Assembly (NCBI RefSeq): GCF_019550795.1
Contig: NZ_CP080545.1
Location: forward strand, 1,879,501 to 1,943,500
Reading direction: 5' to 3'
DNA from: Paenibacillus sp. sptzw28
GTDB taxonomy: Bacteria > Bacillota > Bacilli > Paenibacillales > Paenibacillaceae
Length of the DNA stretch: 64,000 nucleotides
Translations under genes and position numbers: made by a program
In this document: in pieces, positions 51,723 to 58,331 of the stretch
Position numbering within the stretch: the first letter of the stretch is position 1
How the letters are laid out: the number at the start of each line of letters is the position of its first letter
Notes under the pieces: generated by a model
Told to the model about the DNA's origin: nothing
The model's input: the letters and a program-made list of their open reading frames with translations, nothing else
Database searches by the model: none

Positions 51723-52204
51723 TTTTCAATCAATCTCCTCTTAATTTTCTTCAATTATAGAGACGCAGTCTCTGGGAAAAAGTTTCAGTTTACTTTTGGC
51801 TGAATCTATATTTTAACATAAAAAAAGAAGGAAGGCAGGCCGATAGAGTCGAACTTTAGAACGAACTTTATAAAAAGATAGATCTATGATAACCTTATAG
51901 AAACGTGTATCATAGAGGGTTATCCGTGATACAAACAGATGAGTAAAAAGGACCGGACAGATTTCATTCAAGCATAAGCCGAGCAGGACATAAATTTCAT
52001 TGAGCGAATTATAGGGTCTGCCGATATGAAAATAATGGATTGAGGAAATCGAACCGGATTATGCTAAACTTGTATTTTATAGGAGAAACTTCTCACAACG
52101 GTTTGATCGAGCTTATCCTATCCCATCCCATCATCGGCAGCTGTGCAGGAAGATAGAACAATGCGTGGAGATGCCGGTAGTAAACAAAGTACGGTGATTA
52201 ATCT
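51723..52204. other. Long non-coding region upstream of the Sda-PAS kinase
   Basis: About 480 bases with no supported gene. It holds two interlocked inverted repeats (51888-51933). The rest is AT-rich. Several -10-like sequences occur near 52055-52080, but none has a convincing -35. Length and structure suggest complex control of the kinase gene. Confidence 0.45.
51888..51933 (+). promoter_or_regulatory. Interlocked inverted repeats (switch-like or operator)
   Basis: GATAACC (51888-51894) pairs with GGTTATC (51918-51924); TGTATCA (51906-51912) pairs with TGATACA (51927-51933). The arms alternate, so both stems cannot form as simple hairpins at once. Either alternative RNA structures or overlapping DNA-binding sites. 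Confidence 0.45.
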
Positions 52205-53392
52205 ATGCTCCAGAAAGTCAGCGACGATGAGATACTTGACATTTACCTTAAAAGCATTGAAGGTGATACCGATCGGGATTTCCTGCTTATACTGGAAGTT
52301 GAATTAAAGCGGAGGAAGTTGCTAGAAAGGGCGAATCGGGAGTGGAAACCATTGAAAAGTTTCGGTAATTCGGAGTTGGATTTTTCCCAATTAGTAAAAT
52401 ACTCGCTCGATACCATTTTCGTACTTCAAGATTGCAAGGTGATTTATGTCAACCAGGCCGCATTTGACCTGCTTGGCCTAAAATATCCCGATCAGATTAT
52501 CGGCGTAGAATTCGATCGTTTTTTACATCCTGTTTTCCACGATATCTTCCGCGAACGGCTCGAAAGAGTCGGCAGAGGGGAAGTGACCGAGCTGATGGAG
52601 CAAAAAATGATCAAATCCGACGGTGAGATGATTGATGTTGAAGTGATGGCGGCCCCCTACATTGTAGACCATCAGACTCTCGCTCAAATCAGGGTTCGTG
52701 ACATTACGATACGAAAAAATACGGAGAGCAGAATTTATAACCTGGAGAAATTATCATCGATCGGTCAGATGGCAGCCGGCATAGCGCATGAGGTGAGAAA
52801 CCCGTTAACTACGGTGAAGGGGTTCTTCCAATTGCTGCAGAAGGAATTGAACCATTCTTACTTTCCGATCATCGTCGATGAATTGGATAACGCCATTAAG
52901 ACCTTAAACAATTTACTTCAGGTAGCTAAACCGGATTTCGACAATGAAGCGAACGTATCGATCAATCTATGCTCTGAGCTTGATTCGTTAATTTTTCTTT
53001 TCCAGGAAAAGCTTTACAACGTGACGGTGACCAAGATATTCCGGGACAGCGACCGGGAAGTTGTAGGAAAGAAGAACTTGATTTTAAAGGCTTTTTTCAA
53101 TCTCATTAAGAACGCGGTCGAAGCAATCGAGGGAAAAGGTGAAATCATAGTCGAACATTTCTACAAGAACGGCAGAATTCACGTCAAGATTCACGATACG
53201 GGCATGGGCATTCCGAAAGAGCAAATAAGAATTCTTGGAACTCCTTTCTTCTCCACCAAGACCGACGGTACCGGAATGGGTCTGACGCAGGTGTTTACTA
53301 CGATCCATGAACATGGCGGTCATGTCCACGTTGAAAGCGAACTAAGAAAAGGAACAATATTTTATGTTGAACTTCCCTGCAAGTCAGTATAA
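52205..53392 (+). CDS. Cytosolic PAS histidine kinase with N-terminal Sda-like antikinase domain
   Basis: A 395-residue soluble kinase of the KinA/KinE-like sporulation type. Residues 4-40 ('KVSDDEILDIYLKSIEG', 'DRDFLLILEVELKRRKL') align with the entire conserved part of Sda, the small protein that blocks sporulation kinases: SD, L, Y-K, E, RDF, E, KRR-L are shared. A PAS domain follows (about 58-170), then HisKA with His195 in 'AAGIAHEVRNPLTTVKG', N box Asn303 ('NLIKNAVEAI'), G1 'DTGMGIP' and G2 'GTGMGL'. No transmembrane segment and no receiver domain. It probably phosphorylates Spo0F. The fused antikinase is unusual. ATG 52205 has a weak GGTGAT ribosome binding site. Confidence 0.85.
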   Translation: MLQKVSDDEILDIYLKSIEGDTDRDFLLILEVELKRRKLLERANREWKPLKSFGNSELDFSQLVKYSLDTIFVLQDCKVIYVNQAAFDLLGLKYPDQIIGVEFDRFLHPVFHDIFRERLERVGRGEVTELMEQKMIKSDGEMIDVEVMAAPYIVDHQTLAQIRVRDITIRKNTESRIYNLEKLSSIGQMAAGIAHEVRNPLTTVKGFFQLLQKELNHSYFPIIVDELDNAIKTLNNLLQVAKPDFDNEANVSINLCSELDSLIFLFQEKLYNVTVTKIFRDSDREVVGKKNLILKAFFNLIKNAVEAIEGKGEIIVEHFYKNGRIHVKIHDTGMGIPKEQIRILGTPFFSTKTDGTGMGLTQVFTTIHEHGGHVHVESELRKGTIFYVELPCKSV

Positions 53393-56278: not shown

Positions 56279-56980
56279 ATGAACAAAACACAGAGGGTGG
56301 AGCCGGTGAAGCATATTTTTGTTGTCGATGACGAGAAAAGCATCAGGGATATTCTGAAAAAGTATATCGAAAACGAGGGTGATAAGGTCACGTTATTTGA
56401 CAACGGCAGCAGCGTACTCGCGGAAATCACCCGTATGAAGCCGGACCTGCTGGTCCTTGATATTATGATGCCGGGGGTAGGCGGTATGGAATTATGCAAG
56501 CAGATTCGCAAAACGAGCGATGTTCCGATCATCTTCGTCAGTGCCAAAGGCGAAGAGCTGGACCGGGTGCTGGGACTGGAGCTCGGAGCGGACGACTATC
56601 TGACCAAGCCGTTTAGCCCGCGGGAGCTGGTGGTCCGGATTAAAAATATTTTCAAAAGGCTGGATAAAGGTTATTCCGCCTCGGCGCTTGTCAAACTTCA
56701 GGACATTGAGCTGCACCCGGACAGGCGGCTTGTGCAGAAAGAGGGCCAGGAAATCAAGCTCACGTCAAGAGAGTTTGCGCTGTTTGAATTTCTTGCCGCT
56801 CACCGGAATTTGCCCTTTACACGGGATCAGCTCCTGCAGAAGGTTTGGGGCTACGACTATACCGGCGACGAGCGGTTAATCGACGATTTGGTCAAACGGA
56901 TCCGCAAGAAGCTGGCCGAGCATGATTCAGCGGTTCAAATCACAACGGTTTGGGGGTACGGCTACCGCCTTGACGCTTAA
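56279..56980 (+). CDS. OmpR-family response regulator
   Basis: A 233-residue two-domain regulator. Receiver: acidic pocket Asp17-Asp18 in 'IFVVDDEKS', phospho-acceptor Asp61 in 'LLVLDIMMPGVGG', Lys110 in 'DYLTKPFSPRELV'. The winged-helix DNA-binding domain ends with 'TTVWGYGYRLDA'. ATG 56279 is kept as start; an in-frame GTG at 56306 is possible but its GGAG lies only 3 bases away. The cognate kinase gene follows after 1 base. Confidence 0.92.
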   Translation: MNKTQRVEPVKHIFVVDDEKSIRDILKKYIENEGDKVTLFDNGSSVLAEITRMKPDLLVLDIMMPGVGGMELCKQIRKTSDVPIIFVSAKGEELDRVLGLELGADDYLTKPFSPRELVVRIKNIFKRLDKGYSASALVKLQDIELHPDRRLVQKEGQEIKLTSREFALFEFLAAHRNLPFTRDQLLQKVWGYDYTGDERLIDDLVKRIRKKLAEHDSAVQITTVWGYGYRLDA

Positions 56981-56981
56981 T

Positions 56982-58331
56982 ATGAGAATCGGCACCAAGC
57001 TGCAGCTTGGCAATCTGGCCCTTATAATTACGGTGCTTGCGATTACCGCGCTCTCGTTTCACGTCTTGTCCGGCCAGTATATGCTGAAGGAAGCCAGGTC
57101 GCAAATGAAGATCGATGCCGAAGCTTTCGCCAGATCGCTGAAAGGGCTAAAGTCTGATTCTGACCTAAGCGCAGCCCGGCGTATCATCAACCGGCACCAA
57201 CTAAGAATTCTAGGTCATGCGATTGACTCGAAGGTGATTGTTTTTGATAACGAGAACCGTATCCTGTATACTAACGTCGGCGCAGACGAAGTTCAGTCGA
57301 TTCAAAAGCTTGACCAGCAGGGCAACGCGGATTACCTGATTGAACGGCGATTAATTCGTTCGGAGGAAGGCGCAACCATTGGGCGCATTTTATTGGCGGT
57401 CCAGATCAAGGATGTAAACGATCTGAATCGTTTGCTTCGGAGAGCTCAGCTAGTCAGCGGTATAATTGGCGGAACGATAGCGCTTGGCATGGGCGCTTTG
57501 CTGGGCAGAAGCATAGCGCGGCCGATTCAGTCTTTGGCCGGGGGTATGCGGAGATTCTCGCCGCGTAAGGAGCTTCCGGAAATTGCCGTTCACAGCGGGG
57601 ACGAAATCGGAGAGCTGGCGGAATCGTTTATCGTGATGGCAGATAAGCTTAGGGCGAACGATAAGATGCAGACCGACTTCTTGCAGAATGCGTCCCATGA
57701 ATTGAAAACGCCGCTGATGGCCATTCAAGGAAACGCAGAGGCGATTAAAGACGGTATCGTCAGGGAGAGAGAGGCCGAGGAAAGCCTGGATGTCATCATA
57801 GCACAGTGCCAGCGGCTCAAGACGGTCGTTGACGAGTTGATCTATTTGACCCGGGTGGACCATCAGCCGGATGCGCTGCGCTTGGAGCCCGCTGCGATCG
57901 GGGAAATAATCGGTGAAGCGGCAGCCGGTGTTCGGGGATTGGCCGATCAGCAGGGGATTGCGATTATGGTGACGGGGGATCTAAATTCCGCAGGCGCTTT
58001 CGACCGCGAGAAGCTGAAGAGAGCTCTCATCAATATAATCGGCAATGGGATCCGTTATGCGAAGACGAAAGTAGTTGTGCAGGCTATTGCGAGAGCGGGA
58101 CAATTGGAAATCGTATGCGAGGACGATGGAAAGGGGTTATCGCCTGGAGAAGAGGAACGGATCTTCGACCGGTTCTATAAAGGAGAATACGGCGGTACGG
58201 GGATCGGGCTGGCGATTACCAAAGCGATCGTTGAGGCCCACGGCGGTTCGATTGCCGCCGACTCGGCGAATCCTGGGGTGGGAGCGGTCATACGTATCGT
58301 TTTACCGGCTGCTCAAGAGGTGAGGAAATGA
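56982..58331 (+). CDS. Membrane sensor histidine kinase
   Basis: A 449-residue sensor: TM1 (about 9-30), an extracellular domain of about 125 residues, TM2 ('LVSGIIGGTIALGMGALLG', about 157-175), a HAMP linker, then the kinase core with His239 in 'NASHELKTPLMAIQG', N box 'NIIGNGIRYA', G1 'DDGKGLSPGEEERIFDRFYK' and G2 'GGTGIGLAI'. No clear ribosome binding site is seen at ATG 56982, which lies 1 base after the regulator's stop, so translation is probably coupled. The signal is unknown. It overlaps the downstream acetyltransferase gene by ATGA. Confidence 0.92.
   Translation: MRIGTKLQLGNLALIITVLAITALSFHVLSGQYMLKEARSQMKIDAEAFARSLKGLKSDSDLSAARRIINRHQLRILGHAIDSKVIVFDNENRILYTNVGADEVQSIQKLDQQGNADYLIERRLIRSEEGATIGRILLAVQIKDVNDLNRLLRRAQLVSGIIGGTIALGMGALLGRSIARPIQSLAGGMRRFSPRKELPEIAVHSGDEIGELAESFIVMADKLRANDKMQTDFLQNASHELKTPLMAIQGNAEAIKDGIVREREAEESLDVIIAQCQRLKTVVDELIYLTRVDHQPDALRLEPAAIGEIIGEAAAGVRGLADQQGIAIMVTGDLNSAGAFDREKLKRALINIIGNGIRYAKTKVVVQAIARAGQLEIVCEDDGKGLSPGEEERIFDRFYKGEYGGTGIGLAITKAIVEAHGGSIAADSANPGVGAVIRIVLPAAQEVRK

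Follow-up and report, generated by a model that had tools for sequence, protein, structure and literature searches.

An Sda-like hairpin fused to an orphan PAS histidine kinase in Paenibacillus, with a conserved start-like site behind it

Sda, the 46-residue antikinase of Bacillus subtilis (structures 1pv0, 3fyr and 3d36), is a small inhibitor made as a protein of its own and acting in trans. Free Sda inhibits both KinA and KinB; it binds the base of their dimerisation and histidine phosphotransfer (DHp) domain, at a site between the histidine and the hairpin bend, and it is disputed whether the inhibition is steric or allosteric (PMC8534201). The signature of a candidate Spo0 kinase is an orphan kinase with a PAS domain (PMC6136694). 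The stretch analysed here, 64,000 nucleotides of Paenibacillus sp. sptzw28 (NZ_CP080545.1, positions 1,879,501 to 1,943,500) and hereafter called the window, contains a gene at 52205..53392 on the plus strand that encodes a histidine kinase of 395 residues with the order Sda-PAS-HisKA-HATPase, an architecture shared by ten relatives.

Sda and PAS kinases are both known kinds of protein, and precomputed domain lists show both on some of the relatives. A literature search, with most subscription papers outside its reach, found no paper on an Sda-kinase fusion. The conserved GGAG-N9-TTG that follows the Sda part is new here.

The Sda hairpin and the kinase behind it

An earlier note on this DNA, made from the letters alone, had claimed that residues 1-40 are Sda-like and had proposed a search against the Sda family model. 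The search gave a match: the 52-residue N-terminal piece aligned with PF08970 over residues 4-41 (52214..52327) with an E value of 1e-4 and 22.4 bits, just below the curated cut-off of 22.6 bits. Inside the whole protein the same model scored 17.3 bits (E 0.0039), and a search of NCBIfam with the piece returned no match. The three PDB sequences found by phmmer at E<=10 were all Sda (3fyr, 8.6e-5; 1pv0, 1.1e-4; 3d36 chain C, 0.071), and 15 of the 38 residues aligned with B. subtilis Sda were identical, a score reached by none of 500 shuffles. The ten relatives having the N-terminal piece, scanned with the three short-annotated relatives left out, all matched PF08970, nine of them above the cut-off and only P0001 (21.8 bits) below it. 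As a control, the Sda model was run on 14 named genomes, where it gave one match at E<=0.01, in B. subtilis; at E<=10 there were matches in eight, one above the cut-off.

Two helices were predicted in the hairpin, at residues 7-19 and 24-36. Since structure alignment of the full model by VIA-align barely tests residues 1-53, the hairpin was modelled separately, and its three best matches among solved structures were the Sda structures 3d36_C, 3fyr_C and 1pv0, so that the unrelated fold named in the earlier note as a refutation did not materialise in the isolated model. The likeness to Sda thus consists of the family-model match, the two-helix hairpin and the retained residues D6, Y13, F25, E32 and R36. 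The family models, the predicted fold and the conservation in relatives establish that an Sda domain is fused to a kinase and that both are real; a chance match or a wrong start was rejected on the Sda matches, the fold model, the shuffles and the conserved frame. Free Sda is a stand-alone small protein, whereas the fused piece is joined to a kinase and has no free C-terminus.

The PAS domain (residues ~60-168, 52382..52708), the HisKA dimerisation/phosphoacceptor domain (residues 187-244, 52763..52936) and the HATPase_c domain (residues 291-392, 53075..53380) were all matched by family models, in the predicted order, and the phosphoacceptor His195 (52787-52789) was invariant in 19 of 19 aligned rows. 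The Sda part had been placed directly before the PAS domain, but the two do not adjoin in the chain: a linker of about 16 residues (residues 42-57, 52328..52375) lies between them and is predicted to be disordered, with model confidence (pLDDT) below 50 at residues 44-53.

A start-like site behind the Sda part

Just 3' of the Sda part, (C/A)(G/A)GGAG-N9-TTG was present in 11 of 11 loci, 10 of them distinct. The window has the Shine-Dalgarno-like word GGGAG at 52338-52342, 9 nucleotides upstream of the TTG of Leu50 (52352..52354), the proposed start of an Sda-free kinase of 346 residues; all 10 distinct genes have GGAG there. The ATG at 52205 is preceded, at a distance of 7 nucleotides, by GGTGA (52193..52197), a weak Shine-Dalgarno-like word for the long form, and AAAGTACGGTGA is also found upstream of the ATG in locus L005.

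Analyses of codons, start sites and the ratio of nonsynonymous to synonymous change (dN/dS) covered eight of the 11 loci, L040 and L123 being dropped for frameshifts and L042 because it duplicates L121. These eight genes have, at 56 places, an in-frame start codon preceded by a Shine-Dalgarno-like word, and the TTG site was the only start-like place found in all eight; the annotated ATG qualified in six and the next site in five. The internal site, which falls in alignment column 50 in five genes and, with a shift in the linker, in column 49 in three, was counted as one. Codon choice around it was unusually conserved, though not uniquely so. Over codons -6 to +1 the mismatch at shared residues, in seven within-cluster pairs, was 0.15 against a median of 0.42, which ranked first among 379 codon windows. 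A single codon was used throughout at 10 of the 174 invariant residues (Met and Trp excluded), including none of the 25 Leu and 2 of the 13 Glu residues, the E and L of the internal site lying outside the invariant columns with the one-codon shift of the Cohnella linkers.

The unfused PAS kinases among the matches listed (107; P0013-P0120 without P0016), many of them from Bacillaceae, were 45-58% identical over 73-90% of the query, and some are annotated as 'sporulation sensor kinase A' or NtrB. None has a precomputed Sda domain. A YSL-type motif was found by pattern in 64, of which 52 start 15-20 residues upstream of the motif and 27 exactly 17. Most of the unfused relatives start where the internal TTG lies, which is most simply explained if the old kinase start was retained in the fused gene. 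With the conserved site at that old start, the gene may make two proteins, an Sda-kinase and a bare kinase. The earlier note is borne out as regards the fusion; the conserved internal start-like site, unseen before, would turn the single autoinhibited kinase envisaged there into two forms of the kinase.

The short relatives were considered as independent proof of the internal start and were given little weight. The annotated start of P0004 and P0010 coincides with the TTG site, by annotation only. The kinase part of P0007 (342 residues) is the same as that of P0005, and genome G418 (locus L123) reads the same protein there; the short annotation of P0007 probably results from an indel in a poly-A run in the Sda part of L123.

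Distribution, free Sda genes and gene neighbourhood

The fusion is rare. The protein search gave 2517 matches, and among the best 120, which were listed, the fusion group comprised at least 13 proteins, the ten with the N-terminal piece, which are 60-96% identical to the window protein, and the three with short annotations. The survey across the family proposed in the earlier note found orthologs at E<=1e-100 in 6 of its 295 genomes; for the order the count was 6 of 392 genomes, four of them in a second family, f6 (4 of 104 genomes), and for genus g12 it was 4 of 37. In the window's genus, 3 of 22 genomes matched at E<=1e-60; two of these matches are fusions, and the third covers the kinase part only. 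All 10 distinct orthologs that were read had the Sda part, two with frameshifts. In Cohnella rhizosphaerae (L040/L041) the frameshift lies in the PAS domain downstream of an intact Sda part and reflects either sequencing error or decay; in L123 an indel in a run of A falls inside the Sda part itself.

Among the best 80 loci of a contig scan, two matched from residue 1-2, in Cohnella rhizosphaerae and Paenibacillus doosanensis. Word-based searches with the Sda piece returned P0001 (one of nine candidates) and P0012 itself (one of eight) and no further fusion, and exclude little because shared exact words are needed. A profile of the eight fused Sda pieces, run over the 392 genomes, found five intact fusions at 79.5-88.7 bits and the frameshifted G418 at 49.5 bits; the other matches listed lay in open frames of at most 133 residues, and lower-scoring fusions may have escaped notice. 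A tree built from 43 kinase parts placed all 14 rows of the fusion group (the 13 proteins and the window) within one set of 15 with support 100/99. Genes in the neighbourhood were common only within clusters, and none was shared across the three clusters (window and G005; Cohnella type; f6).

Where synonymous change was unsaturated, which for the Sda part was the case in four of eight pairs, dN/dS was 0.20-0.36 for the Sda part, 0.06-0.13 for the PAS domain and 0.03-0.04 for the histidine kinase (HK) part. The Sda part is therefore kept as protein, under looser constraint than the kinase.

The genome of the window has two free Sda genes besides the fusion. The second is divergent and lies in an open reading frame of up to 110 residues (L002 1318-1650; 66599-66715 of the genome). 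Two Sda matches were found in 18 of the 22 genomes of the genus, counting a second match of whatever type. Sixteen of the 295 genomes of the family had no Sda match, and all belong to genus g7 (G027, G057, G067 and 13 more); no g7 genome had a match, and with the fused-Sda profile g7 again stood only among the misses listed, so the whole genus may lack Sda.

Sda is controlled by DnaA and LexA. A simple scan for consensus boxes, covering ten upstream regions each 350 bases long, found no DnaA-, LexA- or Spo0A-box common to the fusion genes. No LexA-like match at 7/8 was present in these regions, and DnaA-like matches at 8/9 were single ones, in G005 and G317 only. A sigma-H promoter at 51983-52011 was considered and not used; its 14/15 match was reached by 8 of 200 shuffles, and elsewhere the best such match was 13/15 in G134 (3 of 200 shuffles) and 12 in six others, with none of at least 12 in G005 and G215.

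The window kinase is an orphan with a PAS domain and no adjoining two-component gene. The nearest regulator-kinase pair (56279-58331), a response regulator and a histidine kinase, is 2.9 kb away with three open reading frames between, and forms an ordinary two-gene unit with no apparent relation to the fusion kinase. The fusion kinase shares PAS, HisKA/HATPase and the absence of a linked regulator in the window with orphan sporulation kinases of the KinA/KinE type, from which it differs in having a single PAS domain with an Sda hairpin in front. Its specificity residues are TTGFQL (TAGFQL in f6), as in Dtox_1918 and KinA/KinE by our own reading of positions against Table 1 of PMC6136694. The fusion gene of G391 is followed on its own strand, at a distance of 253 bases, by genes for a His_kinase protein and an AraC-type response regulator (L129 5347-7959), and relatives of both are near the fusion gene in G392. 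Unlike orphan Spo0 kinases, the fusion kinase thus has a separate kinase-regulator pair nearby in these two genomes, either by chance or through a functional link in f6. The genome of the window has Spo0A, a 248-residue open frame matching SPOB_a, and a lone receiver domain at 3959161-3959526 on the minus strand (open frame of 124 residues), a possible Spo0F.

Proposed mechanism and its alternatives

We propose that in the Paenibacillales an sda-type gene was joined, in the same reading frame, to the 5' end of a gene for a soluble Spo0-type PAS histidine kinase, and that the fused kinase retained its old ribosome-binding site and TTG start. Translation from the ATG at 52205 would give the Sda-tethered kinase, whose hairpin would dock near the phospho-histidine of its own or a partner dimer and hold autophosphorylation down, while translation from the TTG at 52352 would give a bare, active kinase. 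The ratio of the two forms, together with mixed dimers, would then set the amount of phosphate reaching Spo0F and Spo0A. We give this proposal, from the in-frame fusion through the kept start to the output set by two forms, an even chance of being correct. The sequences supply the fusion, its conservation, the predicted Sda fold and the nucleotide conservation of the internal site, from which we infer translation from both starts, docking, inhibition and phosphotransfer. The tethered Sda may plausibly inhibit its own kinase. It is a more tentative suggestion, and a doubtful one, that the two conserved starts form a translational rheostat, in which the choice made by ribosomes would fix the proportions of inhibited and free kinase in mixed dimers and which would have arisen when an inhibitor gene was fused before its target with the target's start kept.

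In CheA-S of Escherichia coli the phosphorylation site is lost in the short form, whereas the short form of the fusion gene would lose the inhibitor instead. The likeness lies in two forms from one histidine kinase gene, for the fusion gene by proposal only; CheA-L and CheA-S have distinct roles, as reported in PMC11005335.

Several observations weigh against the proposal. The internal start was noticed after looking, and at the protein level E46 and L50 are conserved as well. The outcome of the codon test varies with width, windows from -6 ranking 14, 1, 5 and 17 of 379 at widths 6, 8, 11 and 14, and at width 11 the window of lowest mismatch starts at -9 and still covers the TTG site. An equally deep and unexplained codon trough lies at about +259 to +275 in the HATPase domain; the second stretch of unusually conserved codons in this domain spans 53141-53179 of the window (residues ~313-325 of the kinase). 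The Sda part evolves faster than the PAS and HK parts. On the tree the fusion label needs two changes, because the fifteenth row, the unfused P0014, falls inside the fusion set, where its branch is long and the fork open (87/44), and one change suffices in only 3% of 200 bootstrap trees; the explanation is either loss of the Sda part in P0014, misplacement of that row or a second event, and one event is compatible with the starred branches. By our own estimate the DHp base is far from the N-terminus of the PAS domain, so that the linker may be too short for the hairpin to reach this base in cis; the structure models are of monomers. Finally, the fused hairpins (12 fusion sequences) depart from free Sda at three positions: L/M/H at position 8 became E/Q, A at position 16 became S/C (A is kept in 2 of 12), and L/M, which predominate at position 19, became E/G/S, one row of the free column (free_L010) not being an Sda. 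Because of these changed positions and the lack, in the simple scan, of a shared DnaA or LexA site, a DNA-damage checkpoint in cis is not supported. The same observations, with the lack of a shared Spo0A box, speak against the simple cis-acting checkpoint of the earlier note.

The alternative that survives best is that the internal GGAG-N9-TTG is an unused fossil of the old kinase start, with one protein made, a reading that can be combined with others of the Sda part. A fossil would lie just where this site does, at the place where most unfused relatives start, and the gene has codon conservation of this kind elsewhere too. However, the site persists in all 10 distinct genes even though codons have been largely replaced between clusters, the same codon being used at 36-44% of shared residues in three representatives. 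We regard this explanation as a real possibility, if somewhat improbable.

It is unlikely that the fusion confers immunity by occupancy, an altered tethered hairpin sitting on its own DHp domain without blocking catalysis and keeping the two free Sda proteins off, so that the kinase would escape the Sda checkpoint. The two free Sda genes in the same genome would suit it, as would the changes at positions 8, 16 and 19 with the other invariant residues kept, but those positions are not known to be the inhibiting ones.

More unlikely still is that the hairpin has turned into an ordinary cap at the N-terminus of the PAS dimer, a helix pair for dimerisation or signal input with no antikinase role. 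The weaker constraint on the Sda part, its replaced positions and the score of the window piece just below the Pfam cut-off are consistent with such a cap, whereas nine of ten relatives score above the cut-off, the isolated model matches Sda first and the linker to the PAS domain is predicted to be disordered.

It is about as unlikely that the Sda part has other sporulation kinases, rather than its own DHp domain, as its main binding partners, in mixed complexes, as a trans-acting antikinase carried by a kinase; the predicted disorder of the linker and the inhibition of KinA and KinB by separate Sda (PMC8534201) would allow this, but covalent fusion to an intact kinase core, the most conserved part, would then be needless.

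As a natural tethered Sda-kinase, the protein would allow the disputed question of steric or allosteric inhibition, as posed in PMC8534201, to be studied in one chain. The retained internal start, if true, would show how a fusion of an inhibitor with its target can remain functional.
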